From IMG/VR virus record IMGVR_UViG_3300037246_001948, positions 1 through 48,024 of that record: a stretch of DNA of 48,024 nt. One strand, written 5' to 3'. Position numbers and translations under genes: made by a program. Numbering within the stretch: the stretch's first letter is position 1; each line of letters begins with the position of its first letter. The stretch comes from a virus. Below, one piece after another: positions 4,805 through 34,781 of this stretch. The notes under the pieces were generated by a model. That model was given only the letters and a program-made list of their open reading frames with translations. It had not been told where the DNA came from and searched no databases.

Positions 4805-4880
4805 CTAACAATCTACACAGCAATACCCACAATTGGGCTCAAATCTTCGTAGCGAGCATTCTGGCTGAGGCCAGAGCTGC

Positions 4881-6720: not shown

Positions 6721-6728
6721 TATTCTTT

Positions 6729-7124: not shown

Positions 7125-7138
7125 CTTCGTTTCTCCAC

Positions 7139-12784: not shown

Positions 12785-12796
12785 ACCAACCCTCCA

Positions 12797-13915
12797 TTAG
12801 AAACCCGCCCAATCAAGCGGGTCGCCATCTACGTTAGCATATGCGAGGGCTGGATCATCTTCTGTCCAGAACAGTTGATCCGGAGCTTGGAAAGCTTTGG
12901 CTGCTTTAATTGCTTCTGACTTGATCATCTGGTCAGTAAAGTTACTATCGAAGCGCGCTCTGTCTGCGTTGCTATCGTCTTTGTGCCAATCATATAAAGC
13001 AGCCCTGGCTCTGGAGAGCACAAAATCGATAGGAACAGCTGTCGTGGCGGCATCGGTGTCGAGCTCAGCAGGGACAGTGATGTAACGGATCATAATGCGG
13101 GAGCCGGCGAATTGATTATCATACGCAGCTTTGAAGCGCATCTTGTCCGGCCATTGTTTATTGTCAAAATCACAGGCATGGACTGGATACCAGTCTTCGT
13201 CCTTTTTTGTAGGGTTAGTGATGGCAACCAGCGTATCCGCTTTTGGCGCTGCTCCAATTGCAAGAACCCAGGTAATCTTCTTGGTTGCGTTATCGATCGT
13301 AGCAATCTTTCTAGCAGAGCCTTTGCCTGTGCCATCGTAGAAAGTGATCCAGTAGTCTGTGGTCAAATGGCTAATATCTTCAGTGGTATCGAGGGTGCAT
13401 TCTGTGGTTGTGCCTGTGGACGCAACACCATATCGCCCAACCGAAGATGGCCTTTCAACCCAAACCTGAAAAACCATAAAGGGTTTCATGGTCGTGAGAA
13501 AAGTGTATTCCATCATGTCTCGAGCGACACATAATGAGAAGTCTTCTTTGGTCTCAAAGAATTCAGGCCACGCATTGCGCATGGCCTCGTTGATTGCTTC
13601 GTGAACCATCTTTGGGCTGTAAAAATCGAGGATCTCAAATAGTGCAGCAGTTCCCATTCCGGTGGGCGTGAATTCAAGTGTGACGTTTTTACTTACCTTG
13701 TTGGAATCAATGATCATCCTGGTTTCGTCGTTTGCAAGCTCATAGTACCAGGAGCGATTCCAGAAGTCGTCTCGCTGGACAAGAAAATTAGCCACGATAA
13801 CCACGTCAGTTTGCGAAGTGATTGCTTCTTGGCTGGTGTAGCGATAGAAGCGCATACCCATCTGACGCCCTAGTGCACGACGCAGATCTTTTCTCGTCTC
13901 CGTAGGCTCAGCCAT
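12797..13915 (-). CDS. Head-to-tail adaptor-like virion protein, 372 aa
   Basis: The protein has a helical N-terminus (TRKDLRRALGRQMG), a beta-rich middle and a C-terminal helical part (FVLSRARAALYDWHKDD). Residues about 160-235 contain an inserted beta module (TTECTLDTT, GTGKGSARKIATID, TLVAITNP) of a kind often found in phage tail and capsid-linked proteins. It lies between the basic repeat protein and the nozzle-like gene, the place of an adaptor or tubular protein A. No enzymatic motif. Call rests on order and architecture. Confidence 0.5.
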   Translation of the reverse strand: MAEPTETRKDLRRALGRQMGMRFYRYTSQEAITSQTDVVIVANFLVQRDDFWNRSWYYELANDETRMIIDSNKVSKNVTLEFTPTGMGTAALFEILDFYSPKMVHEAINEAMRNAWPEFFETKEDFSLCVARDMMEYTFLTTMKPFMVFQVWVERPSSVGRYGVASTGTTTECTLDTTEDISHLTTDYWITFYDGTGKGSARKIATIDNATKKITWVLAIGAAPKADTLVAITNPTKKDEDWYPVHACDFDNKQWPDKMRFKAAYDNQFAGSRIMIRYITVPAELDTDAATTAVPIDFVLSRARAALYDWHKDDSNADRARFDSNFTDQMIKSEAIKAAKAFQAPDQLFWTEDDPALAYANVDGDPLDWAGF

Positions 13916-16890: not shown

Positions 16891-17895
16891 TTATGTATCA
16901 CTAAAGATGTTGGTATGCTCCAGGTCGACGAGGAAGGCGATGTTCAGCACAATCTCATCTTCTGCAGCTTTCCAACCTAGCGTAGCTCGCTGATTCAACG
17001 CGTCGTCAGACCCGGCAGAACCGAGCTGCTTCCCGATGATCTCGACCGGGGAACCGAACTTACCACCGGTTCCAGGCTTACCTTCCGGTCCCTGTGTGTC
17101 CACTTGCTTCGGAGTGATAGCTCCGATCCCCACACAACCATACGCCTGCTCACCGATGAACAACGCTGAGTACACGTCGGTTGTTCCAACACCGCCGTCT
17201 GCGTACTCGCGCGCGTTCGAAGTAACGTAAATGTCACACATCAAGAAACGCCCAACCAAGGCTGTGCGAATCGGGGAGGCAGCCTCGCGGCTTGCCTCGG
17301 CAACAAAGACGTTAACGAACGTCGGTTCTTGCATGAGCGTGAAGTAGCTGTGAGGATGCAGGACTACCTGGAACACACCGCCGATTGGCATTGCGTTCGC
17401 GGCCATGAGGGTCGCAACTGCGATGATGAAATCCCGATAGGAAATATCATCGGCTGGGGAATCCAGCGTGGCTCGGGTCTTAGAGTTGGCATAGACCTTT
17501 GTTGCACCAGCGGTAATCACATCGCGGACCAGGGTATCTATGGACAAACCAGCCTGTTCACCGAGAATCCCTGAGACCTCGGTGACGAATGGATCCATGG
17601 CGGTCATTTCGATTTCGTCAGTGTAGCCAACCCACGCTCCATAGAATAGCGGGGTTGCTGTGACTGGCGTAATCGTAGGTGCGGCTTGTTCAGCAGGCGT
17701 GGTGCCTTCTGTCAGAGCCGTGGTAACAGCTGCAAAGCCTGAGTATCGACGCCATTCCATCGATCCAAACTTATTCAGCTTAGCTCGTACAGCCCAACGC
17801 GGGTGAACAAGGCGTGGTAACGCTCTCCACAAAAGCCGTTTCTCATAAAAGCTTTTAACAGCCGTTGCGAAAGCGGTTTGGGTTATTGCTGTCAT
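16891..17895 (-). CDS. Major capsid protein, N4-gp56 family, 334 aa
   Basis: The N-terminal third has the signature order of the N4-gp56 capsid family: a basic helix (SFYEKRLLWRALPRLVHPRW), the strand FGSMEWRRYSGF, ATTALTEGTTP (TALTEGTTP at about 59-67), then YGAWVGYTDEIEMTAMDP. Later come the conserved ISYRDFIIAVATLMAANAMP (about 153-172) and VVLHPHSYFTLMQ, followed by VGRFLMCDIYVTSNA. These proteins have the HK97 fold and form the head shell. Its Shine-Dalgarno (AGGAGG) lies inside a strong hairpin. The scaffold gene is directly upstream and two decoration-like genes follow, as in other phages. Confidence 0.85.
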   Translation of the reverse strand: MTAITQTAFATAVKSFYEKRLLWRALPRLVHPRWAVRAKLNKFGSMEWRRYSGFAAVTTALTEGTTPAEQAAPTITPVTATPLFYGAWVGYTDEIEMTAMDPFVTEVSGILGEQAGLSIDTLVRDVITAGATKVYANSKTRATLDSPADDISYRDFIIAVATLMAANAMPIGGVFQVVLHPHSYFTLMQEPTFVNVFVAEASREAASPIRTALVGRFLMCDIYVTSNAREYADGGVGTTDVYSALFIGEQAYGCVGIGAITPKQVDTQGPEGKPGTGGKFGSPVEIIGKQLGSAGSDDALNQRATLGWKAAEDEIVLNIAFLVDLEHTNIFSDT

Positions 17896-17951
17896 GTCAT
17901 TCCTCCTGCCTGTCAGAGCCCACGGAAGAATGACCTACCTTTTAGACAGGC
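17896..17951 (-). promoter_or_regulatory. Stem sequestering the capsid Shine-Dalgarno, with interleaved second stem
   Basis: In minus-strand RNA, GUCAUUCUUCC (17934-17924) pairs with GGAGGAAUGAC (17906-17896) over 11 bp including one G-U pair. The loop is 17 bases. The AGGAGG ribosome binding site of the capsid gene is at 17907-17902, so nearly all of it is buried. A second stem, GCCUGUC (17951-17945, last codons of the scaffold gene) with GACAGGC (17914-17908), starts before the first stem and ends in its loop, giving a pseudoknot order. It could tune capsid translation or couple it to scaffold translation. Confidence 0.6.
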
Positions 17952-18745
17952 ATATCTTCTTCTTTGATGTCACCAGCTTCAAAGGCATCATAAAGAGCTT
18001 CTCTCTCATGCTCCGGTATGTCTGCCATCCGCTTCTTTGCAGGGGCAGCTCCGGGTACCTTTGTTTGCACCTTGGGCGGCTTCTTGCCCACAGCCGTCGC
18101 CACAACCGTCGGTGCTCCAGGAACTTGCAGTTTGCTTGCGGTGATAAATGCTTCGAGCTGCTCATTCCTAGATCGAAGGCCAGCTACGAGCACCTGGGTA
18201 CCTTGCCAACCTCCCGAATGGAAGACCTCGAACCCCTCACTTCTCTTAAGAGAGTCAGATTCAAGTCCAATCTGGTTGACAAAGAAATCCTCCCAGGCAA
18301 GCATTGATTCTCTCTGCTGCAACGAGAACTCACGCTGGTCTAGCTGACCAGATTGATTCTCAAGCCGTGTCAATTCACGCTGCTGGAGATAGACTACCTT
18401 TTCATCGTCAGGCAAGTCTTTTATTTCCAGCTCTGCGAGCCGGTCACCCATCACTTCCTCACGCTGTTGAAACTCTGACTGCATTTGGAAAGTGGAGCGA
18501 TCATGATTCGACTTGAGCGTATCCATGTTGCCTTGCAAAGTGCCCAATGCTGTCTGTGACTGCTCAAACTGCTCTTGCCAATTAGGTTCGTCCTCCGCCG
18601 GGGTGACGGGCGCCGCTTCCGTTGTAACGGGTACAGCCCCTTCTTCCTCAGGCGCCAACTCCTCAGTAACCGGTGCTACCGGCTCTTCGAACTCAGCCCC
18701 AGGAATAGTCTCGGTGGTAACTCCTTCTTGGGTTGGTAGTGTCAC
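17942..18745 (-). CDS. Capsid scaffolding protein, 267 aa
   Basis: GTG start with TAGGAGG five bases upstream. The protein has an acidic Glu/Pro/Thr-rich start (residues 1-55), a long coiled coil (about 55-150, rich in Gln and Glu, e.g. QQRELTRLENQSGQLDQRE), a helical middle, and a C-terminal basic-then-acidic region (KKPPKVQTKV, DIKEEDMPV). This is typical of phage scaffolds, which guide capsid assembly and leave before packaging. It lies immediately before the major capsid gene. No protease motif is visible. Confidence 0.75.
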   Translation of the reverse strand: MTLPTQEGVTTETIPGAEFEEPVAPVTEELAPEEEGAVPVTTEAAPVTPAEDEPNWQEQFEQSQTALGTLQGNMDTLKSNHDRSTFQMQSEFQQREEVMGDRLAELEIKDLPDDEKVVYLQQRELTRLENQSGQLDQREFSLQQRESMLAWEDFFVNQIGLESDSLKRSEGFEVFHSGGWQGTQVLVAGLRSRNEQLEAFITASKLQVPGAPTVVATAVGKKPPKVQTKVPGAAPAKKRMADIPEHEREALYDAFEAGDIKEEDMPV

Positions 18746-18755: not shown

Positions 18756-18775
18756 TATTAGTATTCTACACTAAC
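18756..18775 (-). promoter_or_regulatory. Promoter-like motif TAGTGTAGAATA before the scaffold gene
   Basis: The minus strand reads TTAGTGTAGAATACTAATAG from the stop codon of the giant gene to the ribosome binding site of the scaffold gene. It shares TAGTGTAGAATA and a following CTAA with the copy at 7139-7160. TAGAAT would serve as a -10 box. No good -35 box is visible 16-18 bases upstream. The position would allow the scaffold-capsid block to be expressed above the giant gene. Confidence 0.4.
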
Positions 18776-21700
18776 GTTGCAACTGTGGCCCACCTTCATA
18801 TTGCTTTCGCAGTTCTGTGATGGGGGTCCACAAGCTTTGCACTTGCTCAATGAACGATTGTTCCTGCGGAAACTTTGATTTCAAATATTCTAAGTATTCG
18901 TTAGCCGCTTCTGAAATCGATTGTCCTGTCTTCGCGGCTTCTTCCACCTCCTCCACTAATTCATCTGGAACTTCTTTCAATAATACCACCGGCCACTTAA
19001 CAAGCTTTGTGGCCCTACCTCTACCAACACCCCTCCTCAGCAAATCACGCACATCTGTAGACGATCGATGTGCAAGTGTCGGGAGAGTTTGAATCACAGG
19101 CTCCCTCGCTCGAGCGCCTGTCGTAGACTTACCTGCTCCTCCAGCACTTGAATAGCCTCCCCCGGTGGCTGCGTTCGGATGGTAATACTGTGCCCAAAGA
19201 GGATGATCAAGTGCATATTGATCTCGCAGATCCCAAAATGCTTCTAGCTCTGGATGAGCTGCCCGGAAATCTGCCCTCTCTGCTCGAGGAAGCTCATTGT
19301 ACTGTGCGGAGATAACAAAGATGTTGTCGCCGAAGTTTACTTTCGCAAGCTGCTTATAAGTATTGTGAAGATCCTGAACATAGGACCATTCCTGCAGTTG
19401 TCCCTCTGTTGGCTGTTCTAAATTCAAGCTGCCTGCCGCAGCAGTAATCAAGGAATAGAATTTTTCAAACTCATCTTCTTTCCAAGCCAGCGGATCACCT
19501 TCTGACGACCACCACTTGTCCCAATCTCGAGGATCGCCACCGTAAGCCCAGAACGCTCGTTCCAAATCTTTCTTGTTTGGCCCGACCCAGCTCATCCACA
19601 ACCAGATTTGATCAGCCATCTTCTCCTGGTCACTCTTGGTCGCATCCAATCTACCTTGAACATCCATGACACCAGAGTTGAGAACCTCTCGTATCTCTTC
19701 TCGAGAGAACTTGTTACCGTATACCTGCTCTACCCAATTGATGAGTGTTTGCTCATTGGGAGCTGCCGGCCAGGCCATCCTGAATCGCATCTCTGCCAAA
19801 TCACGATCGTAACCTGTCTTCCCTTCAACGGCGCTCCAGAACTCAGTCCAATATTTATCATCCCAAACCCGGTTGAGTGCATCGAGAACACTATCGTTCT
19901 CGAGATCCCAAACATTCATAGCCTCCTTGGTTGAGATTGAAAGCAGGTCCGGCCACACAGCGTCAGGTGGCAAAGTCGTCAAATCTCTCTGGAAATGAGG
20001 TAGCGTTTGTGCTCCAATCATAGGGAGATCCCGCTCCCACTGTGCAACACGCTCCTTATATTCTATGTAGGACTCCCCATCGTCCCGATTCCAAGAAGGC
20101 TTTGTGCTGAGCAAAAGTCCAAACCAAGTGTCTGCGAACCAGTCAGCCCATTCCGATTCTGATTTTGCAGGACCGGGATGGGTAACTGTGCGGCGCGCAA
20201 GCGCATAGTTATCAGTCGTCTCTGCCCATGTCTTATGCCCCGCATATTCGTCGTAATAACCTTCCTTCAGTTCATAAGGTGCTCCGACTGGCAGGCTCTT
20301 CAAATTGGTCTGCAGCTCATCGTAAAGCACTTCGTTATAAGCGAAGTAATCTCTGCGCTGGATCTGCTTCAAAACATCCTGCTCTACATATTGTCGCCTA
20401 CGCTCACCATACAATTGCCCTTCGGTCGGTGTGCGTGTCCAGGAGACAGTAGAGTAAAGGCCATAGATCACACCCTCATCCACAGAGTACCGTCGTTCCT
20501 GCCATCTTTCACGACGAGCCTGTTCTTCTCCTGGTAGCTCAAAGATTTTTGCACCGACTTCGTCGTTCACCATGTCTCGCAAGAAATTGATTTCGTGGCG
20601 TAGCTCACGGAGCGCTGCCTCTGCGTCCGAGTAAGCTTTGGGATAAATGCCAGTGAAGAAGCCGATGAGCCGGTTGTAATATTCCGTCTCTTCTGTATAT
20701 TTTTGTGCCTTGTCCCAAATCGGGTGGCCCTCACGCTCAAGAATTGCTTGCTCTGTAGCGAGCGCAATCTCAGCTTTCTCCTCAGGAGGAGCTTCCAACA
20801 TGACGTCCCACTGCATCGCCAGCATGTCTCGCTCGACAAGGTAGTCTTTCCACGTGACTTGCGGCGTGAGATATTCCCAGCTCTGCGGCCAGAGGTGTAA
20901 CTTCCGCAGCTGAGAAAGAATGTCATATTGAATCCATGGTGGAACCAGATCCAAAGCTGGGATGATCGATCTCGACGGGAATTGTTCCTCGTCGACCATG
21001 CCAGTCTTGCGAATCAGAGTCTCCCACCAGGGAGCAAGGTTGAAACCCATCTGCCTACCCCATCTATAGGCAAGATTGATCGTCTGCTCTGCGGGACCAA
21101 GATCTGCCATCTGGTCACGTGGATCGCCGTAGACGGTGTATTCCATCGGGAGAACAACCTTGGCTGACAGCGGCCCGAGCGGGTTGATCCACAAATTATC
21201 TGTGCCCGGTACAGGGATATATCCTCTGAGCCTGTTCAGCGGTCGACCCTCGCTGTCTATAGCCCCACGCTGATAAACGAAACGCTCGCTCATGTTCTGA
21301 TACTTCATCCAGAAAGCGAGCAGCTGAGGATGAGAAGAGATAGCTTCAATCCAGAAGGGGATGCTCCTGGTCGGGAACTTCCAGAAAGGGAAGAACTTTT
21401 TAGCAATCGAGTCGATGTTGTACTCGGTTGCATAGTCAATCATCACCTTCAGCGTCTCGGGGAGAGCACCTTCCACCGTCTCGCCGGCGAGCTCACCACC
21501 ATGACGAGCCACATCCCGCACTTCCGTCTTAGCCTTAAGAGCCGCTTGTGCCCAATCGACCATCTTCTGAGCATCTTCTTCGGGGATCGCCTTGAACATA
21601 TCGTCGGCGCCACCGTCGACGAGCCATCGATACCAGTTATCGTAAGCATTCATAGCCGCATGTAACTCAGCAACCGCGCCCTGCGCTGCTATCTGCTGAA

Positions 21701-24700
21701 CCACCTTACCCTTTGGCCTCATCCAAATTGGAATGAAACCAGCGCCCACAAACATATCGGGCGTATCGCCAATGTTGTACTTGAGCTGCTGAGCAAGCGA
21801 ATTGATCTCATTGATCAAATCCTGAACTGGTTTATCCGCTCCCTTAACAACATCGCCTCTTGCAATAGCTTGTACGATTCTGTCTCGATCTCTCTCGAGC
21901 ATTCTAAGGAATGTCGCATGATCTCTTGCTTCTTCGCCAAACTGCGCGATCCACTGCCTAGAGATCGCAGACTGCTCAAAAGCTTGCTTATGAACTTCAT
22001 CGACAAGAAACTCCTCTCCAGCTACGATCGACTCATTGAACATGGTAATCTGTGGACCCGCCTCAGTGGCGACGACCATCGGTTGTGGATCGCCAGGTGC
22101 ACGTGCTTCCGGAGGAACATCGAATACGCTCGGGGGTTTCTCAGGAAGCGACGGGTCTACCAAGTCATAAACAACTGTTCCATAACTGCTGTTATCTGCT
22201 TCTGATATGTGACGAACATCCACACCATCAAACCCAGCCTTTTTCATTACTCTAGTAGATGCCGTGTCTACTTGTTTTGTTGCCCAAAGATTTCCACCGG
22301 CATCTGCAATTGCTTCTTTAACTTCATTGATACTGTCTTCTAGAACTTGTGCGTCTATATCAATTCCGAGCTTTTGTAGTTGCTCTTGGAGGGTAGTAAT
22401 TTGGAATCCTGCGGGGTCTAATTTACTTAGGGAAAGCTTGTTTACATCTCTTAAAGTATCATGCAGCGCAAGCGCCTCTTCCCAATCTTTCGGCTTATGT
22501 AGATTGTAGTTGCCAATGTCTACCGTTTGTACTGGTCTTCCGGCAGTCCTTCCGACAGCTAATTCTTCTGAGGACACAAAGTATGTTCCTGTTCCAAAAT
22601 GCCCGGTACCTCGACCAGGATCCATTTTATCTAGGAATGTGTCGGTTCCTTTCCCCAAATCTCCTGCGTGATAAGCCAAATTGGGATTCTTTTCTGCAGC
22701 TCTAGCAACCTCAGCAATCTCCTCAGTAATCGCGCCCATATCATTTGCGACAACCTGAATATCCATTGCCGTAGCGCCCTTGAGTCGTAATTCCTCCATC
22801 TTTCCAGCCAAGTCTTCGAGCTGATAACTCAATTCCTCAATGTGTGCATATGCGTCTACATCGAAACTTGCCAGGTCCCGGGCTTCCTGTAGCGTCTCCG
22901 GCCCAATCTTAGGATCAATGACAAGCTGTGCAGAAGGTAAACCGACCGTAGGCATGGGAGCGTTGGGATCTGCATAACCAGCAGCGAACTGCGTCTCCCA
23001 GCCTTCTCGCTTCCATGGCGGTATTGTTCGATCGGCAGGAATTTCAAATCCAGCTTCGCTTGGCAGTAGCTCAGTCGGAATATCTGCATAGGGGCTTGGT
23101 GTGCTGGCATCGTCGATGGCGAATAAAAATTCCATCATCTCATCATCAGAAGCCATAGTCTTCGCATCTTGACCGCTGATAAGGGCCCCCATGCGCTCCA
23201 TCGATTTCATCGTGCGCTTGGTGTATTTCTCCTCGAGGGCTATATCTGCATATAACCAATACAATTCACCATGTGACTGACTTCCCATGCGGAACGTGCG
23301 TCCCGCCGTCTGGTCGACACCCAGGGCCGTGTAGGGAACCGTCAGGTTGATCTGCACTCTTGGATAGTCACCGATCGTATCGTGCAAAGAGAGTCCGGTT
23401 CCACCGGCATCGATGGTTGCGATCATAACGTTGGACTTACCAGAGTTGAACGCGTCCATCGCTGCGATTCGCTTGGCGCCGGTCACATCACCAGAAATCA
23501 CTACCGCATCCGGAAACTCAGCCAGCAAAACATCTATCGGGCTTTTGATTTCGACACCAGATTCGATGAGGGCTTTGTAATAACCAGGCATAGGAGACTT
23601 CTTACCATAGGTCTTCCTACCTGCTATGAAATCTGTAAGGTGCTGATCAAATTTGGATCCCTGTTTGCGCCACACAAAGAAAGATACGCTGTTGCCATCA
23701 GCCAGCTTTTGTGTGCCTAGCTCGATCGCTGCATCCAGCTTACCGTTTTCTAAGATTGCCCTACCGATCCCCACGCGCTGTGCTTCGATGATCGATGCCG
23801 ATCGACCTACCGAGAATTTGTCTGTGATCTCCATAAAGCGGGAATACATATCTGCTGTGTCTTGGGTAATCGGAACCGGCACACTGGCCGAGTACATATA
23901 CAGCGCTTCACCAGTCGTTGAGTTGAAATTGTTACGGAACGACTGTTCGTGCCGGATATATCGGCCTTCTCTCACCAGCTCATCGTTAAGTGTTGCGAGG
24001 CTCTTCGGAGTAACGTTATCAAACGTCTCGATGTAGACCTGGAAGGGCTCTCCACCAGCGCTGTAGCGAGTGACTTCTCGCTCCACCCGCTCGATCCCTA
24101 AGAACTCCAGCATGTCGTCGAAGGTTTCGAAAACATTTGTATCCCGCATCAAATAACCTGCATGCAGGGGAGATTCTAGCGGCGTAGCTGACAGATAAAG
24201 AGTATGGTCTGCCCATTCTCCCAAATTCACTCCAGCTACAGCCGTGTTGATCTCCTGGTACCAATTCTTGAGGAAGTGACTCTCATCGAAGATCAGCAAA
24301 TCGAGCTGCTGATTAGAAAGCATTTGAGAAAAGGTCTTCTTCTGCGCCCAAGCATTCATAGAGCTGTAAGTTGTTGCGAAAACAACCCCACGCTCTCCAG
24401 TGGTGATTGCTTCGGGCAGCGCATCCTTGGTTGCGAACTGTCGTACCTCAATTCCGAGAGGCTTCAGTACATCTTCCCACTGGCTGATGATCTGCCTGTT
24501 GGGGGCCACAAGCAGAAGCCGATCTCCACCACGCTCGATCACCTGATCAGCAATTAGAGCTGCGGAGAAAGTCTTACCTGTGCCTGTGCCATCGCCGATA
24601 ACATAACCCTTAGCTGTGTCGAAGGAAGTGAACGCTCGATTGGCAGTATCTACCTGGTGCTCATAAAAGGTGAAAGCCTTGAGAGCCGCCTCTTCTTCAC

Positions 24701-27700
24701 CAAGACCTTGCTTCAGGAAATAGCTTCTGGTTCTTTCGAAGGCGTTGTCAATGTATTCGGCTGAGACGTATCCTCCTGGTTGCGGGAGGAGCTCGCTAGA
24801 TACCGTGACGATGCCTGAGTCTGCCCTGACACCCGCAGCGAGTCCACCCCCGGCATGCGTGGCAGGTGATTCGCGAGGTACTCGTCGTCCCTCCGGCCCG
24901 GGTACAGCGGAGTGAGGTCTAGCCTGCCCCACACTTTCGGAGACAGCGACACTTGGGGCTGCTTCTCCTGGGGTGGGGATTTCTCCTTTGGCCGGCTCAA
25001 TTTCGACTGGCGGCGCTGTAACAGGCTCCGCAGCTTTTTCAATCCTGAGTTTTTCTGCATCTTCTATCTCCTCCAGTGATCTTTGCAATACCTCTACAGG
25101 GTCCTCATCACGCAAAGCATCACGAACAACCTGCGAATCGAGATCCGCTTCTTTCACCTGACTATTGAAATCAAGGCCGCGAGCCTTGGACGATTTTTGA
25201 AGATCGTTGATATGAGATTGTGCAACACCGGCCTCAGTAGCTTCCTGAATTTCCTTGCGAATAAGTTGCTCCCGCGCCCATGCGCGACGGACTTCGGGTG
25301 GAATATCAACAATTCCTATCGGCGGTGCTTCCGGAACAGCAGCTCTAGCTTCCGTAATAGCCGTTCGCTGTGCCTCATCAAGCGACACACCCTCATCCAA
25401 CAACTCCTGAATACGAGTGCGATCAACCTCGACTCGCTCAATATCGATCTGCGCGAGCTCCTGCGCGGCAACATCAACGTCCTGCATCGTGCGCGGGATA
25501 GCCGGGTCAAGACCAGAGATCCTACTTAGCTCCGCTTCTTTTAATTTGAGATTATCGATAACACGTTGCGCTTGTTCTAAATCAACACCTAACTGCTCCG
25601 CAAGACCGGGATTGTTTATCACCCGCTGAGCTGTAACCTTGCTCCCCCTGAGAGTCCTGATCTCTGCCTGCACCTTAGCAAAGGACGACAACCAGGACTC
25701 ATCCATCGCAAACAAACCAAGCTGCACAGAGCGCTCAATCCTCGGCCCAAATGTTTTTAGGAACTGCTTGAATTGAGCAACTGATGGTTGATACTCAGCA
25801 AGATATGACCTAAATATCTGCTGCTGAAACTCTGGATTGATCGAGAACTCTCGTACTGCATCAGCAAATGCAAATCCGTGGCTCTCTCCAAACCACGAAT
25901 AGCGGCCAACATCCCGAGCAATATCCGTCGAGAGTTCAGTCAGACTTGCAAGCCTGGCTACATAACCAGCCTTGTTCGGATCGTTGTAAATAACCCTAGC
26001 AAGATCGGTTTCTGAATCTCCCGCAGCCATCAGCGTAGCAAATACACGACCTTTTTCAAATGCCGTCTGCTCTGCCCGAATCATATTATCGATGCTTGCA
26101 AGGTATTTCGCTTCTTCATACGGAAGCTGATAGACCAACATAGGAAGCTCATTATGGCCGGCAACCTGCGCAGCCCCAAAACGGTGATGCCCACCCATCA
26201 TTACCAGGTCGCCGTCTTTGATTCCTTTACCATAGAGAGCTGCCTCCCCCGGCTGAACCACATTGACCTTAACTGGCTCGTATTGTTTCCAATCCCATTG
26301 AGAAGCAATGCTATTTATACGCGCCCGGTCAACCTGCATAATTTCTCCGGATGTGGTGCGAGGTTGAAACTCAGGTATCGTCTGAACATCCTCAATCTGC
26401 ACCTTCCCCAAACTCCAACTCAGATCATCTGCCATATCGATCGGTTTTACAGGAGCAGTCGGTCCCATAACCGGGCCAGAAGGAGCTACAGGGGGCACAG
26501 CTGGCCCAGGGCGAGGCGCAGGCGGCGGTGTGCGACCATAGAACGCATCGGTCCAGCGAGCGCCTTCTGGAGCATCTCGCATCATAATTGCTTCGAACTC
26601 CTGGAGTACGGTGGAAATCTCCATGGGGTATTTCTTGCGCCAGATCTTCGTAGCATCATGGATCGCAACCAGCCGGCCATCAGCATCTAATTCAAGCGGG
26701 AACCCAATACTATCCATCCAATCAAGATAGGTCATGCGCTCAATGTATCTGGCTTCGCCCGACGCAATCGTTTCAATAAATTCGTCGGCTAACATTTTAT
26801 GTGAGATCCAGATCTCCTCTTGAACTCGCCAGAAAACACCCCACTTCGTACCGGAGAAGTAACCGCGAGCCTGATCTTTTAGGACAATCTGCCACCTGAG
26901 AAAATCCTGCGTCCTACTTCGCAGCTGTGTTGTGTCGTCCCACCAGACCCACAAATGATCAGGATAATCTTCTCCTGGTCGCAATTTACTCAATTCGTCA
27001 TGGAGCTCAGCAATGCTTCCGCGTAGTTCCACACCAGCTTTACGAGCCGCAGCCGCTTCCGGTCCTTTGCGATCGGCGAGTGCTGCCAGCTCCTCGTCAA
27101 TTTGATCGAGGATTGCCTGACGCCCTTCTGGTGTCATGCTATCTGGACGCGGGGGAAGATCAGGATCGGGTGGACGAATGAAAGGATCGATCGGCGCATC
27201 CGGAGGCGGGTTCCGCCGCAGCCATTCCTGAGCAGCGTAATCTTGTGTACCATCCGGCATCAATGGCTGAGGTCGATTGCCTGCTTCAATCAATTCACGA
27301 TTGACATTATCCATCGCCTCAAGAAGCTGCTCGTCAGTCGCCCTGCTTGTCAAAATCCTCGATCGTCTAGCAGCATCATCCGGTGTTACATCCGGCGCCC
27401 GGATTTCATCCAGAGCATCAGTCAGTGTCCTGGCTTCTCGCTCTACCTCATCTGCAAATTCCTCAGCCGCCGCCTGTTGCTCAGGGGTAATCGCCCCAGC
27501 TTGAGCTGCAGCTTGTTCTTCATCGATTGGAACAGTGACCTTCGGCTTATCAATCCCCTTGCGTTCTACCCATTCTGCGACCAGGTCTTCGCGCAACCCC
27601 ACGGTTCCTGTGTCGGGATCTCGAACAATTACTCCTTCATCCATGAGCTGCTTAACGTGCTCAAGTTGCGCCGGGGAAGGATCTGCACCACGGTTCAAGG

Positions 27701-30700
27701 CTCGAGCAAAGACGGAGGGCTCCGTGTAGCCATCGGGAAGTGCATTGGCATCGAGAATATCATCTACGATTGGATGAGAAGCCTGTGGTGTAGTGTCCAT
27801 CCTGCGCGCTTCATCGATCGCACTCTCAACTTGCCTGCCTAAATCATCTACCTTCCGGGCAGCTGAGGCCTGGGCAGCACGTTCAGGATCAATAATGCCG
27901 CGGGACAAAATCACATCGTCAGCATCCATCGTCCGGTTGATCGCACTCCACTCCTGCACATACTCATCCATCAAACCATCGAATACAGACTGTAAACGTT
28001 CAGGAGTCCAATCAGCTTCACGTAAGACAGGGCGCAGCTTCTCCACAGCGTTGTCAATAAAGGTCCGCTGTGTTTCAACTGGCATACCCCGCAGCCAGGT
28101 ATTGACTTCATCAGGAATTAAGAATGAGAAAATAGGCCGGCCACGACCAGCACCTTTACCATAGACCGCATCAGCAATAAGCTGCTCGAGTTTTGCAGGA
28201 TTAGCCTCTGCCTGTTTCCATATCGATCGAGCACGTCTAATGGTATCGGGAGAAGCGTCTCCAAGAAGCTGCACAATCAGACGCTCACCAACTTTGGCAT
28301 CCATAGGAAGGAACGTGCGCCAGTAAAGGCTGTCATACAGACGCGCACTCATAGCAAACTCGAACCATGCGTTGTACTGCTTCATAGAAGAACCAAAGTT
28401 CGCCCAGTTCCAAACACGCATGGCCTTAGCCATAGTGGGATAATTTTCAGCGAAGGTCTCGACTACCTTAACGCTTCTTGTCCAGAACGGACGCTTGCCA
28501 AGCGGCCACGGCAAATCTGCAATGGTCGACGTCCCAATTTCACCAAAGAAATAGGTAAGTGGTCCATATGCAGGAGCTTGACCTAAAGGAAGTGCTGCTC
28601 CTGCCTCGGTAACAGGGAAACGCATGTATATTTCACGCGGCATTGGTGTGCGCCGCATAATGTCGTCAAGGTTCTGGAAAGGAGCTGCGCCATAAAGAAT
28701 GTGGCGAAAACCCGAGTCCATGAAGTTGATCCCCGTAAAGCCTGGTCGAGCCGAGAGCACCTGTTCAATCCAGCTGCGACGCAACCAGTCATAAGCACCG
28801 CCAAAGACAACTCTACCTTTCGTAACTAACCGATCGCCATATTTCGCTCTAGCATTACTAATAAAAATGGCTTCAAATGTGCCTGCTAATTCCTCAACAA
28901 CAAGGACCGGCGCCGGTGTAAGGCTGTCCAACACTCGAATATCTGTAATGCCATTCGCCATCGCCATACGACGAGTTTCTCGAGCGGCACGTTCAACCGC
29001 ACTATCCGCCATACGCGCCCAATCTTCGGGGCGCGCCAGCTGAGCAAGTTCATCTGCGTAGCGGAGCTGCCTTGTACCCACCGTGGCCGGGGTATGTCTC
29101 GCAAGCCCAAACTCATCGACAAGCCCCACGAAAGCACGATTATCCTTTGACGACTGCATGATCGTCGCAAAGAGCTCGCTTGCGCGAAACCCTACACGCC
29201 TCGACAAAGAAACAGTCGTCTCTCTCGTAAGCCAGCGAATACTACTACCCAGCGCAGGAACCTTATAAGACAAATCCAGGGCCGCAGCACCAGTCTTGCG
29301 CAGAATTCGCCACGCGCCCTTCAGACCTCGCTCCCAAATCACGTTGAACATGGCGAGATTTCCAATATCGAAAATCGCCTCGCCGATCATTTCAACCACA
29401 GGATCTTCGTAGCGTTCTTTCAGCCTAAAGGCTTCCCAATACCCCAGATCGCGACCCATTTGTGCAACGAGCGAGTCCCGCTGTTCTAAATATTCACCTT
29501 CTGCATCTTTGTCCAGCATCCAGGTGAAAGAAAAATCAGGGTCGACCTCCACCACCACCCTGCCAATCTTTTTCCTACCCTGAGTAAATAGCTGATTACC
29601 TTCCTGTGCATATTCTGTAACAGCCTTCTCCCAAGCCTCAGCGGCGAAAGCTTCTTGATTGAACCAGGGATGTTTGTCAGGATCCATAAAGGCGCCGGTT
29701 GCGAGAGCGTAGTAATACGCAGCTCCCATAAGATCGCCGAAACCCTCAGATACATCATCGTGCAAAGGCATAAGCTCTTCAGTATCCACAACCCGCCATG
29801 CTTCGCGAGCCGCTTCTTTACGAAGCCGAGCAAAATCCCAATCAGGATTCAATTCTTTGAGTTTATCGAAATAGAAACGATACTCAGGTAAGCTAACAAT
29901 TCGCTGAGCCGCAAAGGCATAGTCCAGAAACTCCGACTTCTCCTCTGTAGTTAATTCATCATAAGGCTTCCGTAGATTCTTCGGGAGGAGGTCAACGTTC
30001 ATGCCGGGAACTTGATGTATTTCTGGAGCGCCAGGTAACCCACTCAGAAAAGTCTCTGTTGTCGTGGGAAGCCGGATGGCAAAAGCGTTGTCTATCGTCG
30101 GGAACGGAGGATTCTCTTCAAAGTAATCCCGCATGAACTCAATGCCGGAGCCCCACACATCCTCAACATCTTCTAATCGCTCCAGCACATGATCGTTCCA
30201 ATACATGCTGATAGGATAATAATCCCAAAAGTTCTTAGGTTCTTTTACTTTGTCAGGATCTAGCCATGGGTCTAAATAAATCCCAACCAATCTAGCAATG
30301 GGCGCATAAGGAGAAAAATTGACCCCCAATCGTGCCACAGAAATCAAGCCTTCGATACCTTGACCAAATACATCTATCCCCGGATTCGTCTGCCTTATTA
30401 CACCCCACTTACCCTTCGGGATCTGCCAAAGAGCAGAAAAGAGTCTCCATATCGGCGGGCGCTTACGAATGTCTGCAGGAACAACCTTCGTCTGCCCTGT
30501 TTCAGGATCATCTACATCTATCCAGACCCGCTCATCCTGTCCTTCCGGAGTAATGAAGAGCTGCTTGCCATGCTTCCACCATGAATCGAGCAATCTTCCA
30601 GCTCCAATGAAAGGACTTACCTCACCACGAAGAATAGTATTGGCAATAGCCACGTTCTCTGTTTGCCAATCCACCTGTATCTTGAAAATATCACCAATAC

Positions 30701-31124
30701 CAAAATCGTAAGGCACCAGACGAGAACCGTCTTCTCGCTGATCCGGCTTGGTCGACCGAGCACTCATAAACTCTTGGAACGATAGTTCTCCCTCAGTAAG
30801 TCCTGCAGTAGCGGGGGAGAGCCGCTGTTCCTTCTCGGGTGTACGGAGCGCTTCGAGTAATCGAGGATCCGCAGGAGAATACGGCGCCATCATCGCAGGA
30901 GAATACGCTTCTTCCAGTAAGGACGTCAGAGAATCAGCGTTCCTCGCAGGTGGTGGGGGTACACTTTTGGATACATACGCTGTCAAACGATCAGACAACG
31001 GCGTACCACCTGGCGGCTTCAGTAGCTCAGAAGCAGCCCATGATTCAAACTCTGGCTCTTCCCAAAATTTATCGGCCTTGAACCTAGCGCCGTATTGGCC
31101 TAAGCGGAATCGTCTCTTAGCCAT
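18771..31124 (-). CDS. Giant polyvalent virion protein with ParB-like, SF2 helicase and ADP-ribosyltransferase-like domains, 4117 aa
   Basis: ATG at 31124 with GAGG upstream. One uninterrupted frame of 12.35 kb. Visible modules: N-terminal unassigned region (1-1500, with the LSARPGFTGINFMDSGFRH stretch seen in large phage polyvalent proteins); ParB/Srx-like domain at about 1570-1740 (GGHHRFGAA near 1641, then IDNMIRAEQTAFEKG); SF2 helicase of SNF2/strawberry-notch type at about 2150-2700 (GDGTGTGKT near 2175, DESH near 2280, LSATP near 2308, GGTGLSL near 2570, QTAGRTFRMG near 2602); ADP-ribosyltransferase-like fold at about 2815-2990 (YHAG, GTGTYF, GFDGV, VVYDL); then a long helical, Trp-rich C-terminus with FFPFWKFPTRS near 3242. 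It lies between portal and scaffold, so it is probably a virion protein ejected with DNA, acting on the incoming genome or host proteins. No RNA polymerase motifs were found. Confidence 0.8.
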   Translation of the reverse strand: MAKRRFRLGQYGARFKADKFWEEPEFESWAASELLKPPGGTPLSDRLTAYVSKSVPPPPARNADSLTSLLEEAYSPAMMAPYSPADPRLLEALRTPEKEQRLSPATAGLTEGELSFQEFMSARSTKPDQREDGSRLVPYDFGIGDIFKIQVDWQTENVAIANTILRGEVSPFIGAGRLLDSWWKHGKQLFITPEGQDERVWIDVDDPETGQTKVVPADIRKRPPIWRLFSALWQIPKGKWGVIRQTNPGIDVFGQGIEGLISVARLGVNFSPYAPIARLVGIYLDPWLDPDKVKEPKNFWDYYPISMYWNDHVLERLEDVEDVWGSGIEFMRDYFEENPPFPTIDNAFAIRLPTTTETFLSGLPGAPEIHQVPGMNVDLLPKNLRKPYDELTTEEKSEFLDYAFAAQRIVSLPEYRFYFDKLKELNPDWDFARLRKEAAREAWRVVDTEELMPLHDDVSEGFGDLMGAAYYYALATGAFMDPDKHPWFNQEAFAAEAWEKAVTEYAQEGNQLFTQGRKKIGRVVVEVDPDFSFTWMLDKDAEGEYLEQRDSLVAQMGRDLGYWEAFRLKERYEDPVVEMIGEAIFDIGNLAMFNVIWERGLKGAWRILRKTGAAALDLSYKVPALGSSIRWLTRETTVSLSRRVGFRASELFATIMQSSKDNRAFVGLVDEFGLARHTPATVGTRQLRYADELAQLARPEDWARMADSAVERAARETRRMAMANGITDIRVLDSLTPAPVLVVEELAGTFEAIFISNARAKYGDRLVTKGRVVFGGAYDWLRRSWIEQVLSARPGFTGINFMDSGFRHILYGAAPFQNLDDIMRRTPMPREIYMRFPVTEAGAALPLGQAPAYGPLTYFFGEIGTSTIADLPWPLGKRPFWTRSVKVVETFAENYPTMAKAMRVWNWANFGSSMKQYNAWFEFAMSARLYDSLYWRTFLPMDAKVGERLIVQLLGDASPDTIRRARSIWKQAEANPAKLEQLIADAVYGKGAGRGRPIFSFLIPDEVNTWLRGMPVETQRTFIDNAVEKLRPVLREADWTPERLQSVFDGLMDEYVQEWSAINRTMDADDVILSRGIIDPERAAQASAARKVDDLGRQVESAIDEARRMDTTPQASHPIVDDILDANALPDGYTEPSVFARALNRGADPSPAQLEHVKQLMDEGVIVRDPDTGTVGLREDLVAEWVERKGIDKPKVTVPIDEEQAAAQAGAITPEQQAAAEEFADEVEREARTLTDALDEIRAPDVTPDDAARRSRILTSRATDEQLLEAMDNVNRELIEAGNRPQPLMPDGTQDYAAQEWLRRNPPPDAPIDPFIRPPDPDLPPRPDSMTPEGRQAILDQIDEELAALADRKGPEAAAARKAGVELRGSIAELHDELSKLRPGEDYPDHLWVWWDDTTQLRSRTQDFLRWQIVLKDQARGYFSGTKWGVFWRVQEEIWISHKMLADEFIETIASGEARYIERMTYLDWMDSIGFPLELDADGRLVAIHDATKIWRKKYPMEISTVLQEFEAIMMRDAPEGARWTDAFYGRTPPPAPRPGPAVPPVAPSGPVMGPTAPVKPIDMADDLSWSLGKVQIEDVQTIPEFQPRTTSGEIMQVDRARINSIASQWDWKQYEPVKVNVVQPGEAALYGKGIKDGDLVMMGGHHRFGAAQVAGHNELPMLVYQLPYEEAKYLASIDNMIRAEQTAFEKGRVFATLMAAGDSETDLARVIYNDPNKAGYVARLASLTELSTDIARDVGRYSWFGESHGFAFADAVREFSINPEFQQQIFRSYLAEYQPSVAQFKQFLKTFGPRIERSVQLGLFAMDESWLSSFAKVQAEIRTLRGSKVTAQRVINNPGLAEQLGVDLEQAQRVIDNLKLKEAELSRISGLDPAIPRTMQDVDVAAQELAQIDIERVEVDRTRIQELLDEGVSLDEAQRTAITEARAAVPEAPPIGIVDIPPEVRRAWAREQLIRKEIQEATEAGVAQSHINDLQKSSKARGLDFNSQVKEADLDSQVVRDALRDEDPVEVLQRSLEEIEDAEKLRIEKAAEPVTAPPVEIEPAKGEIPTPGEAAPSVAVSESVGQARPHSAVPGPEGRRVPRESPATHAGGGLAAGVRADSGIVTVSSELLPQPGGYVSAEYIDNAFERTRSYFLKQGLGEEEAALKAFTFYEHQVDTANRAFTSFDTAKGYVIGDGTGTGKTFSAALIADQVIERGGDRLLLVAPNRQIISQWEDVLKPLGIEVRQFATKDALPEAITTGERGVVFATTYSSMNAWAQKKTFSQMLSNQQLDLLIFDESHFLKNWYQEINTAVAGVNLGEWADHTLYLSATPLESPLHAGYLMRDTNVFETFDDMLEFLGIERVEREVTRYSAGGEPFQVYIETFDNVTPKSLATLNDELVREGRYIRHEQSFRNNFNSTTGEALYMYSASVPVPITQDTADMYSRFMEITDKFSVGRSASIIEAQRVGIGRAILENGKLDAAIELGTQKLADGNSVSFFVWRKQGSKFDQHLTDFIAGRKTYGKKSPMPGYYKALIESGVEIKSPIDVLLAEFPDAVVISGDVTGAKRIAAMDAFNSGKSNVMIATIDAGGTGLSLHDTIGDYPRVQINLTVPYTALGVDQTAGRTFRMGSQSHGELYWLYADIALEEKYTKRTMKSMERMGALISGQDAKTMASDDEMMEFLFAIDDASTPSPYADIPTELLPSEAGFEIPADRTIPPWKREGWETQFAAGYADPNAPMPTVGLPSAQLVIDPKIGPETLQEARDLASFDVDAYAHIEELSYQLEDLAGKMEELRLKGATAMDIQVVANDMGAITEEIAEVARAAEKNPNLAYHAGDLGKGTDTFLDKMDPGRGTGHFGTGTYFVSSEELAVGRTAGRPVQTVDIGNYNLHKPKDWEEALALHDTLRDVNKLSLSKLDPAGFQITTLQEQLQKLGIDIDAQVLEDSINEVKEAIADAGGNLWATKQVDTASTRVMKKAGFDGVDVRHISEADNSSYGTVVYDLVDPSLPEKPPSVFDVPPEARAPGDPQPMVVATEAGPQITMFNESIVAGEEFLVDEVHKQAFEQSAISRQWIAQFGEEARDHATFLRMLERDRDRIVQAIARGDVVKGADKPVQDLINEINSLAQQLKYNIGDTPDMFVGAGFIPIWMRPKGKVVQQIAAQGAVAELHAAMNAYDNWYRWLVDGGADDMFKAIPEEDAQKMVDWAQAALKAKTEVRDVARHGGELAGETVEGALPETLKVMIDYATEYNIDSIAKKFFPFWKFPTRSIPFWIEAISSHPQLLAFWMKYQNMSERFVYQRGAIDSEGRPLNRLRGYIPVPGTDNLWINPLGPLSAKVVLPMEYTVYGDPRDQMADLGPAEQTINLAYRWGRQMGFNLAPWWETLIRKTGMVDEEQFPSRSIIPALDLVPPWIQYDILSQLRKLHLWPQSWEYLTPQVTWKDYLVERDMLAMQWDVMLEAPPEEKAEIALATEQAILEREGHPIWDKAQKYTEETEYYNRLIGFFTGIYPKAYSDAEAALRELRHEINFLRDMVNDEVGAKIFELPGEEQARRERWQERRYSVDEGVIYGLYSTVSWTRTPTEGQLYGERRRQYVEQDVLKQIQRRDYFAYNEVLYDELQTNLKSLPVGAPYELKEGYYDEYAGHKTWAETTDNYALARRTVTHPGPAKSESEWADWFADTWFGLLLSTKPSWNRDDGESYIEYKERVAQWERDLPMIGAQTLPHFQRDLTTLPPDAVWPDLLSISTKEAMNVWDLENDSVLDALNRVWDDKYWTEFWSAVEGKTGYDRDLAEMRFRMAWPAAPNEQTLINWVEQVYGNKFSREEIREVLNSGVMDVQGRLDATKSDQEKMADQIWLWMSWVGPNKKDLERAFWAYGGDPRDWDKWWSSEGDPLAWKEDEFEKFYSLITAAAGSLNLEQPTEGQLQEWSYVQDLHNTYKQLAKVNFGDNIFVISAQYNELPRAERADFRAAHPELEAFWDLRDQYALDHPLWAQYYHPNAATGGGYSSAGGAGKSTTGARAREPVIQTLPTLAHRSSTDVRDLLRRGVGRGRATKLVKWPVVLLKEVPDELVEEVEEAAKTGQSISEAANEYLEYLKSKFPQEQSFIEQVQSLWTPITELRKQYEGGPQLQR

Positions 31125-31134: not shown

Positions 31135-31524
31135 CTATTTCTCAAACGGATTCACAACCTTTGTCCGTTTCGCCGGAGGTGTATTCGAAGCCTCTTTTTC
31201 CTCGATCTCATCGTCGAGCATGCCGGGATCGGCTTCTTCCTCAACGACCTCTTCCTCCACAACTTCAACAACTGGCATAAACTTCACGCCAAGGACCGCT
31301 ATCCTGGCTCCATGGGTAGCCATCCCAGCAACAGTCCAGCCCTCAAAATCCTTATTGAATTGCAATTCCTCCTTCGCATTCAGCATCGCAAGCTGGAAGA
31401 ATTTGTAGACCGGCTTCATGGGAATCCCATCAGGCGCAATCTCAATCTTCGGAGGAGTCGAGTAATCGATTTCCTCATCAGCGGATTCAATCGGTCCCAC
31501 ATCAGTCAACGGTTGGTCAGTCAT
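31135..31524 (-). CDS. Acidic hypothetical protein, 129 aa
   Basis: A compact central part (residues 28-85: GIPMKPVYKFFQLAMLN, ARIAVLGVKFMPV) lies between acidic, low-complexity ends (EEEVVEEEADPG, DDEIEEKE). The C-terminus turns basic (PAKRTKVVNPFEK). It starts by TAATG-type overlap with the gene before and ends ten bases before the giant gene. It may be a virion accessory or a partner of the giant protein. Family not recognised. Confidence 0.6.
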   Translation of the reverse strand: MTDQPLTDVGPIESADEEIDYSTPPKIEIAPDGIPMKPVYKFFQLAMLNAKEELQFNKDFEGWTVAGMATHGARIAVLGVKFMPVVEVVEEEVVEEEADPGMLDDEIEEKEASNTPPAKRTKVVNPFEK

Positions 31525-32606
31525 TAGAAAAATCTCCTATTTGGCGCTCCAAACCGACCTGCCTGCTGAGGCATCATTTGTCCAGCAGTGAAGAACGGCT
31601 TGGTAAGCATTTGCCCAAGCGGCCCAAAGGGTTGTAATTCACCTCCACCCGCCTGAGACAAGAACGGATCTATGGAACTCAACATACTCAGATATTGCTG
31701 GCGCGTCTGCCCTGTCTCGCCTGACCCTCCCCTGCCGGCGACGGAACCCATGATGTTCTGCAGCCACTTATAGCCAGGTCCCAACTTCCAGCGATTACCC
31801 TGCACCATCGCCTCTCGCATGTTACTGAGATTCTGTATTGCATCTGTAGCTCGCTGGGACGACATAAAGTATCTGCGCATCTGATCGCTCAGAGGCTCCA
31901 CTTTCTTGACGCCGCCATCTCCCCAAACACCGGACACCGGCCTGCCTTGACTCATCAGATAGCGCGCCTGGTCTTCAGTCACTGTGGAAACCTCAGGGAT
32001 TTTTCCGGGTTTATACGCGCTCATCTCCGTATCAAACATGGCATAGAGCGAGTGAGCTGTACGCACCTGATCTTCAGGGCTAAGATACGGAATCATCGCA
32101 TTGAGCATAGCGCCATAAGCCGTCTCTGGCGTCACTTCTTTAGGAACAAACGCCTCCCACCAGTCCGGCGCAGCTCCTCCGGCGAGCTCGTACCCTCCCT
32201 CATCCCACTCAAACATCTCATAACCATCCTCAGGTGCCGCAAGAGAAGGTAGATCTCCAGCGCCAGCCATAAAAGGCGCGACCGGTTCATTCACCGTCAT
32301 GCCGCCACCGCGAGGGTCGATGCTGGTAATTTCATATCCCTCTGCGACCAATTGCGCCAAATTCGCTGCTTCCTCTGAAGTAGGGCTAAAATTAGTCTGC
32401 TGAAACATCGACCACCAGACAGCAGGAGGAACGCCGGTTGATTCTGCCAGATTCTCAATCCGGGCTCCTGTTTCGGTTTGTTCTACAGGTGGACTAGACG
32501 GCGCCGATGGCGGTACATACGCCGGTCTAGGCGGCAATACTGCTCTTGGTACCGTTCTCGGTATACGAGTAATTCCTCTGCCTAATCGTCCTCTACCTCT
32601 CGGCAT
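31524..32606 (-). CDS. Proline-rich virion-region protein, 360 aa
   Basis: The first 45 residues are basic then proline-rich and likely disordered (RGRGRLGRGI, PPRPAYVPPSAP). The middle is acidic and helical, with YEMFEWDEGGYELAGGAAPDWW near 130-150. The C-terminus is Gly/Gln/Phe-rich (AGQMMPQQAGRFGAPNRRFF). It lies in the portal-to-giant-protein group and overlaps its upstream neighbour by 14 bases. No enzyme motif. Probably a minor virion or assembly protein, by position only. Confidence 0.55.
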   Translation of the reverse strand: MPRGRGRLGRGITRIPRTVPRAVLPPRPAYVPPSAPSSPPVEQTETGARIENLAESTGVPPAVWWSMFQQTNFSPTSEEAANLAQLVAEGYEITSIDPRGGGMTVNEPVAPFMAGAGDLPSLAAPEDGYEMFEWDEGGYELAGGAAPDWWEAFVPKEVTPETAYGAMLNAMIPYLSPEDQVRTAHSLYAMFDTEMSAYKPGKIPEVSTVTEDQARYLMSQGRPVSGVWGDGGVKKVEPLSDQMRRYFMSSQRATDAIQNLSNMREAMVQGNRWKLGPGYKWLQNIMGSVAGRGGSGETGQTRQQYLSMLSSIDPFLSQAGGGELQPFGPLGQMLTKPFFTAGQMMPQQAGRFGAPNRRFF

Positions 32607-32823
32607 GGCCCATCTTCTCCTTCTCCATCGCTAAAACGTATTCAATTGTTGCATCGGGCCCATACTTCTCAGCGATTTCATCCAACATCTCGGGAGTCAT
32701 TTGTTCATACAACTCAATCTTCCTGCTGCTCTTACGACCAGTAAGAGATTCTTTCATTTCACGATGCGCTGATTCCATAGCTTCCTTCATATCGTCACGC
32801 ACTTCAAAGAGATTTTTGCTCAT
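32593..32823 (-). CDS. Small helical charged protein, 76 aa
   Basis: Nearly all helical and highly charged, with Met-rich amphipathic segments (DDMKEAMESAHREMKESL, then PEMLDEIAEKYG). It overlaps the portal gene end by four bases and the next gene by 14. Small charged helical proteins just after the portal can act in head assembly; there is no direct evidence here. Family not recognised. Confidence 0.6.
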   Translation of the reverse strand: MSKNLFEVRDDMKEAMESAHREMKESLTGRKSSRKIELYEQMTPEMLDEIAEKYGPDATIEYVLAMEKEKMGHAER

Positions 32824-34781
32824 CTTCCAAAACCTCCAGCAAGATTGGGCGCGACTTGAACCATCTCCTCGAGCATCTTGCCGTCTTCCTGACCAAACGG
32901 CGCTCCACCTTCTTCAACTGGATAAGCACCTGGCACAATCGGGGTAGAGCTGACTCCAGTTATAGCTTCGGCCTTCCGCCCTTCAGTTGGTCGACCCGGT
33001 TCTCCAGGCATGCCTTGTTCCGTGTATCTCTGAAGCAACATCGCAGCGATCTTATTATTTTCTTTCGTTGCCAATTCTTCAAGATACTCCATCATTATCA
33101 GCTCTTGGAACGCCGGCAGTTCCTTGACTTTCTGGATATTCATGCGCCGCTCTTCATCGTCTGGTTGCGGCACATTGAGATAGCGCTGCATAATCGTCCA
33201 GTTCGAAAGGAACGGACTAGCCTGTGTCGCGTGAGCGATCTCCCGCGTATCCATGCCTGGGTACTTCGGCTTGATCGTCACATCTACACGGAAGCCTTCG
33301 CACTTGCGACCTACAATCTTATCGTAGAAGAATTTGCCGCGCATCTTACCGTACACATGAATCTCCGCATTCTCCGCAAAATTCTTGATCAGATTCAGAG
33401 TCTTGTGTGCCCATATCGCCCACCCCTGCTCGAGCTGCTGACTCGGTGTGACAAGCCTGATCTGGCCGCTATCAATAAGCTGACTGATTGCATAGCCGGC
33501 CATATTCTTCACGCCTTCACCATACATTGCAGCAGGGAACGATGATTCTTGTGATTTTGCCTGCAAGAGAGATAGCTGGCTCTCTACGTCCGGCGGTGTC
33601 CCGGGCCATTCCGGGAACCCAAGGTCCTCTTCAAGCGAGAGCTGTGCCACGCGGCCCAGGCCCGGATCAAGCTTAACCTTCCTGGCATCCCTTGTTCTGC
33701 TGACAAGAGGTAGACCCGCATACAGGTCAATCAGTCGTGCCTGGCGATTGAACCGCGTCTCTATGTGAGGAACAATGTGCTGCATAGCATGAAGCAGTGA
33801 CTCCCCCCAATCTTCAGGTTTCTTGCGCCCGATCGGCTTCCAGAAAAATAACGTATAAGGAATTTCGTCGTAGCCCTCGGCAATCTCCAGCGGCTTGATC
33901 AAATAATCAGCATAGATAACTGCATTTCTTACAATAATTACCGGCTTGCGCTCCCAAATCTGTTCGCCTTTTTCGTCTACGGTCGGCGCACCTGTCTCAG
34001 GATCGATGATAGGTATCGGCTCACCATCATCGTCTTCAACCAACTCAAACCCACTTATGTATTCCCAATAGTCTATGAACTCATGCTTCTCGGTCTCCTT
34101 CTCATCCTTAGACTTTTGTGCAAACGCCGGTATCTCGATTCCCTCATCTTTCTCCACATCCTCAATCGTGCGATCGTCAGCATAGAAAAGTGACAACCAT
34201 CGTTTTTTGCCCCCCGGGATCACATATAAATTCAGAGCATCTAACACCTGGACACGAAGCGGAAGATCAGTGAACATAGCGACGATCGGCTTACCATCTT
34301 CTTCATCTGGCGTTTCGGGTTGCGGCTGCATAAACATCTCATGGTATTCATCATCCCAAACCGTACGGATCACACTGACACCGTCTCTTGCGAGCTGTAT
34401 AATATGTTCGTGGTTAATGTTGATCTCGTCACGAATAGCGCTGATATGAAGAGCAGCATTCAGCACTTTCTCAATCATGCTTGAGCGTCTGCCTTCTTCG
34501 GAACCTGGGGTAAAGCCGTAGGCTTTGAAATCTATCGCGTTGGCAGACAGAATAGAAACCGCAAGATCAACTGCATTAGTGTAGTCGGGCCAGCTAACGC
34601 GGCGCTCCTGAGCTTTGGGCTTCTTTTTATAATGCTTAAATCCGTAGAGCTTGCGATAGTTTTTAATCCGATCATGCAACTTCTCCATGTTCGTCTTCGC
34701 GTTTTGCCAGCGATCCTTGATGTAATCAGGGACCTGCTTCATTTCTTGGTCGTCAGTGTATTTCACCGTTGCACTAGGCAT
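32820..34781 (-). CDS. Portal protein, 653 aa
   Basis: Follows TerL by two bases and has the portal layout: an N-terminal helical clip/wing start (VPDYIKDRWQNAKTNMEKL), RRVSWPDYTNAVDLAVSIL, then beta-rich wing segments (VQVLDALNLYVIPGGKKRW), DYWEYISGFEL, and long C-terminal helices. DAMxHIVPHIETRFNRQAR-like sequence near residue 330 and PAAMYGEGVKNMAGYAISQL near 415 match the stem and crown helices of podovirus-type portals. The C-terminal 60 residues are Gly/Pro/Glu-rich and likely disordered. Portals form the dodecameric ring for DNA entry and exit. Confidence 0.75.
   Translation of the reverse strand: MPSATVKYTDDQEMKQVPDYIKDRWQNAKTNMEKLHDRIKNYRKLYGFKHYKKKPKAQERRVSWPDYTNAVDLAVSILSANAIDFKAYGFTPGSEEGRRSSMIEKVLNAALHISAIRDEININHEHIIQLARDGVSVIRTVWDDEYHEMFMQPQPETPDEEDGKPIVAMFTDLPLRVQVLDALNLYVIPGGKKRWLSLFYADDRTIEDVEKDEGIEIPAFAQKSKDEKETEKHEFIDYWEYISGFELVEDDDGEPIPIIDPETGAPTVDEKGEQIWERKPVIIVRNAVIYADYLIKPLEIAEGYDEIPYTLFFWKPIGRKKPEDWGESLLHAMQHIVPHIETRFNRQARLIDLYAGLPLVSRTRDARKVKLDPGLGRVAQLSLEEDLGFPEWPGTPPDVESQLSLLQAKSQESSFPAAMYGEGVKNMAGYAISQLIDSGQIRLVTPSQQLEQGWAIWAHKTLNLIKNFAENAEIHVYGKMRGKFFYDKIVGRKCEGFRVDVTIKPKYPGMDTREIAHATQASPFLSNWTIMQRYLNVPQPDDEERRMNIQKVKELPAFQELIMMEYLEELATKENNKIAAMLLQRYTEQGMPGEPGRPTEGRKAEAITGVSSTPIVPGAYPVEEGGAPFGQEDGKMLEEMVQVAPNLAGGFGR

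Follow-up and report, generated by a model that had tools for sequence, protein, structure and literature searches.

A giant polyvalent-type phage protein encoded among head genes, with a C-terminal domain common to a family of giants with variable middles

The locus and its giant reading frame

The window analysed here, the whole stretch of 48,024 bases, is an entire IMG/VR record in which an exact terminal repeat is absent. A single frame of 4,117 codons, beginning with ATG and free of internal stops, occupies positions 18771–31124 on the minus strand, where all window features given below also lie. This polyvalent-type open reading frame (ORF) agrees with the initial annotation, and each of the motifs listed there was found at its residues in the 4,117-aa giant.

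On one side of the giant lie three small genes (76, 360 and 129 aa; 31135–32823), a 653-aa gene at the portal position (32820–34781) and the terminase large subunit gene (34784–36520; phrog_9, 5e-32). On the other side come a 267-aa gene at the scaffold position (17942–18745) and the gene of an HK97/N4-gp56-like major capsid protein (16891–17895; phrog_1357, 4e-38, and tblastn). The giant had been described as lying between portal and scaffold. For the portal part of that placement, the 653-aa protein matches an HMM of the relatives' portal-position genes (E = 2.3e-24); no curated portal model matched it, and a profile search of the PDB gave nothing relevant. The scaffold part is positional, with relatives having a gene of 208–285 aa there and a search for sequence homology of the 267-aa protein finding none.

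For the giant, the capsid protein and the terminase alike, scans at the DNA level and with single proteins turned up no close relatives, and the N- and C-terminal parts of the giant matched none of the named phages by tblastn. A scan of genome contigs returned mostly distant generic helicases and yielded no host assignment.

A C-terminal domain in a fixed gene slot

The C-terminal end of the giant (residues 3223–4103; 18816–21458) belongs to a domain common to about 40 giant IMG/VR proteins of about 1.6–4.1 kaa. One of them, L011, shares both this end and the gene slot with the window giant, and scans with the shared end gave 42 loci; the family, which we call the chassis family, comprises L011, L231, L232, L234, L236–L276 and the complete genome MW202608.1. 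An HMM built from 29 relatives, with the window protein excluded, matches the window giant at E = 2e-20, most strongly at residues 3228–3284 and 3917–4097, and scores 66 bits, compared with 2.4 bits for the best of 100 shuffles. The family has no match in Pfam and no sequence match in the PDB. A model of the domain from L234 is largely helical and of moderate confidence (pLDDT 71, pTM 0.50), and a fold search with it against the PDB and BFVD returned nothing below E = 0.001. The earlier guess that this end might hold a new domain is thereby borne out, and limited literature searches found no description of the family.

In family members, a gene of 208–285 aa (around 230 aa) usually comes next after the giant, and the capsid gene after that. 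The capsid-position genes number 36 with that of the window; 18 of these match phrog_212, 8 phrog_1328 and 5 phrog_1357, all of them major head proteins, with overlaps between these families possible. The order in MW202608.1 is terminase, a 631-aa gene, a LysM gene, a 2,156-aa giant, a 233-aa gene and capsid. The window giant occupies the same slot, with the portal-position gene on one side and the 267-aa and capsid genes on the other. The LysM gene (L295:8119–9504) directly precedes the MW202608.1 giant, and the matching region of the window holds the 360-aa gene. In L011, the chassis is divided, one half in each of two ORFs that differ in frame and share a 65-nt overlap (2578–6285 and 6221–13663), an arrangement that could reflect a split gene, a frameshift or an assembly error.

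Between the ends, the family proteins vary. Across 17 complete members, lengths are 906–1,183 aa for the N-terminal part, 329–2,198 aa for the middle and 695–836 aa for the C-terminal part, and mean pairwise coverage is 0.63, 0.18 and 0.91, respectively, a contrast that is partly built in because the boundaries were set by the limits of alignment to one member. The middles of 29 relatives carry ART-PolyVal (9), ddrB-ParB (9), GGDEF (3), helicase (2) and RadC (1) domains, often along with a zincin-like HExxH motif. One giant with both GGDEF and ddrB-ParB (L231:2–10504) also contains internally repeated segments.

The window giant matches this family in its C-terminal domain and its slot between portal-position and capsid genes; its cargo differs, and its N-terminal part is not detectably shared. 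No relatives were found for residues 1–1560 (26445–31124), which show no detectable relation to the conserved N-terminal approximately 1,000 aa of the family, so that only half of the window protein can be placed on the chassis. Divergence beyond detection may account for the missing match. Homology of this stretch to the family N-terminal part or to the split 1,235-aa ORF of L011 was considered and is not claimed, with a whole-length z of only 3.7 and non-significant local tests.

Domains of the interior

The interior of the window giant begins with a probable ParB/Spo0J-like domain at about residues 1575–1740 (25905–26402), which has a GGHHRFGAA box at residues 1644–1652. Matches to TIGR00180 (8.9e-6), phrog_1033 (3.2e-6) and Spo0J in the PDB (1vz0; 1.3e-3) lend the proposed ParB assignment moderate support, and the match to Pfam ParB_N reaches only 0.013.

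Residues 2131–2680 (23085–24734) are firmly predicted to be an SF2 helicase of the SNF2/strawberry-notch type. The Pfam matches to ResIII (9.7e-14), AAA_34 (2.1e-12) and Helicase_C_4, the strawberry-notch family (1.5e-6), confirm the SF2 helicase claimed for residues 2150–2700. The motif set is full, with GDGTGTGKT (2177–2185), DESH (2280–2283) and SATP (2312–2315) followed in the C-terminal half by GGTGLSLHD (2574–2582) and QTAGRTFRMG (2605–2614). In the PDB, a profile of the close helicase clade matches RapA and SNF2-type remodellers.

The closest helicase kin, in the IMG/VR loci L010, L090, L098 and L011, came from two alignment-based scans. The helicases of L010, L090 and L098 are about 33% identical to that of the window giant and group with it in the helicase tree (98/91), apart from L011 and L240, the two chassis-family members with helicases, and apart from the DarB-like giants. 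Yet a search of the L010, L090 and L098 giants did not find the window protein's C-terminal domain; those of L010 and L090 instead have an N-terminal SLT (transglycosylase) domain and a C-terminal LPD38 domain. Because the window helicase clusters with giants that lack its C-terminal domain, parts appear to have been exchanged between giants. Cargo and chassis thus seem to have different histories, and the presence of a similar motor on unrelated giants suggests that the gene slot has evolved independently of the cargo.

The third interior segment (residues 2810–2999; 22128–22697) resembles an ADP-ribosyltransferase (ART). Its motifs start at residues 2818 (YHAG), 2844 (GTGTYF) and 2964 (GFDGV), and H2819, Y2848 and D2966 are colinear with the ART active-site set, the H-Y-D set described by Iyer et al. 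2017 (PMC5512222). Against an HMM of 12 ART-PolyVal domains, the majority taken from related giants, the segment scores 12.8 bits, and the best of 1,000 shuffles scores 5.9. The signal is weak but non-random, and an ART is plausible here: the motifs, their order and the score lean towards the original claim. A curated Pfam match does not, as the segment falls below the ART-PolyVal (PF18760) cut-off and no match to that family is present in the window's record. The alternative that the segment is not an ART, leaving the giant as an ejection protein that only handles DNA, draws on that missing Pfam match and on a single-sequence AlphaFold model of the segment that is uninformative (pLDDT 43). 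We regard it as unlikely, while giving it real weight, in view of the colinear H-Y-D set, a score exceeding all of the shuffles and the curated ART-PolyVal domains that nine of the 29 relatives hold between the same conserved ends. It is otherwise compatible with a head-borne carrier.

Together, the helicase and ParB-like domains in one polypeptide, with the weaker ART-like segment, support the proposed reading of the giant as a polyvalent protein. Such proteins were defined by Iyer et al. 2017, with hub domains including DdrB-ParB, SWI2/SNF2 and ART (PMC5512222), so the combination seen here is not new in kind. As in that class, several disparate domains sit in one huge polypeptide whose gene adjoins virion genes, with terminase and capsid as neighbours. 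Unlike that class, the window giant has no curated LPD or peptidase domain that we could find, its ParB-like part fits canonical ParB models rather than ddrB-ParB, and it has an unlabelled C-terminal domain and a slot between portal-position and capsid genes. Within the limited literature searches, what is new is the C-terminal chassis family with its fixed slot and variable middle.

Possible packaging and ejection of the giant

The shared C-terminal domain and the variable middle cargo suggest a head-borne carrier for injected effectors. We consider it probable that such a head-associated carrier underlies the window giant, a polyvalent phage protein with interchangeable interior cargo, and that the giant is packaged and then expelled on infection. 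Its packaging and ejection are inferred from the gene position, from the kin with SLT and LPD38 domains and from the precedents of the JC1 giant and the N4 virion RNA polymerase (vRNAP), and its enzymatic activities and targets are likewise inferred. Made late, the giant would most likely be placed in the procapsid near the portal, in few copies, by its C-terminal domain (about residues 3220–4100), with the ParB-like domain, the SNF2-type motor and the ART-like domain as interchangeable cargo. At infection it would be ejected together with the DNA or before it, probably in an unfolded state, and would refold inside the cell. The motor and the ParB-like domain may then attach to the incoming DNA and travel along it, serving its protection or its early processing in the way proposed for DarB; the ART-like domain may modify host proteins.

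A broader reading would make the chassis family a widespread head-borne delivery system with conserved N- and C-terminal ends, a fixed pre-capsid slot and interior effectors (ART, ParB, GGDEF, SNF2 motors and RadC) that can be swapped, including with other chassis, and that is distinct from MuF toxins, N4 vRNAP and DarB. We put this forward tentatively, as possible rather than probable. If the C-terminal domain does carry cargo into the head and out through the tail, it would offer a testable answer to how giant effectors are loaded, and new effectors could be found by reading what lies in the variable middle, flanked by the conserved ends.

The initial annotation had likened the giant to N4 vRNAP, which is ejected (PMC12633501). 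The likeness holds for delivery: N4 vRNAP (gp50), of about 3.5 kaa, is carried in the head and ejected, and is comparable to the window giant only in how it would work, as profile and PDB searches found no single-subunit RNA polymerase domain in the latter. Since no methylase, MuF domain or RNA polymerase domain could be detected in the window giant, we do not file it as a DarB protein, a MuF toxin or a vRNAP.

The nearest named kin, by helicase only (about 25–35% identity), are podovirus giants annotated as PLxRFG or DarB-like antirestriction proteins. These giants (Parlo, Skulduggery, ZX1 and Bcep22/JC1) are 3.7–4.5 kaa long and have a homologous SNF2-type motor, to which their likeness to the window giant is confined. 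One of them, the 4,515-aa DarB-like JC1 gp69, was found in CsCl-purified virions by mass spectrometry (PMC9144972). The virion location of that protein, and the resemblance of the window helicase to those of the Parlo and Skulduggery giants, could suggest that the window giant is itself a DarB-type antirestriction protein, an injected motor–methylase that protects the genome and to which the other domains are accessory. DarB is defined by its motor–methylase pair (PMC5512222), however, and searches of Pfam, NCBIfam and PHROGs found no methylase in the window giant; the fused adenine methylase of DarB type (with LPD36) was likewise absent in profile searches. The tree separates the window helicase from the DarB-like giants, and the gene positions differ, with the window gene between portal-position and capsid genes and those of the named kin after the tail genes and beside the lysis genes, where the virion genes end. 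We therefore judge this explanation improbable. The largest ORF found here, of 6,003 aa, has a DarB-like helicase (L088:1679–19690), and a giant with ART-PolyVal in its record (L022:4859–18406) has, at 4,515 aa, the length of JC1 gp69 and is probably its close relative.

We find it very unlikely that the giant is a MuF-like portal-associated polymorphic toxin. It does resemble MuF toxins and SPP1 gp7, in that its gene comes after the portal-position gene and it combines constant with variable enzymatic parts, and the ART-like cargo fits too, ART being common among MuF toxins (PMC5576092). Nevertheless, no MuF domain was found in the window giant or in six relatives scanned whole, and the cargo of the giant lies in the middle rather than at the C terminus. 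Finally, the idea that it is a non-virion late protein for replication or genome handling, lying among head genes by chance, would suit the helicase and ParB-like domains as parts of DNA metabolism but is most unlikely given the constant place that such giants have, across dozens of divergent phages, between the portal-position gene and the capsid gene, the N-terminal SLT and C-terminal LPD38 domains of the L010 and L090 giants, and the JC1 homologue found in virions.

Elsewhere in the window, the late-gene cluster includes a 1,117-aa protein (7152–10505) with a DUF559-like stretch at residues 81–163 (E = 2.4e-5), an unusual place for this endonuclease-related family. A glycosyl hydrolase family 25 lysozyme, probably the endolysin, is encoded at 5929–6720, and a tRNA-Met (CAT) at 46516–46589.
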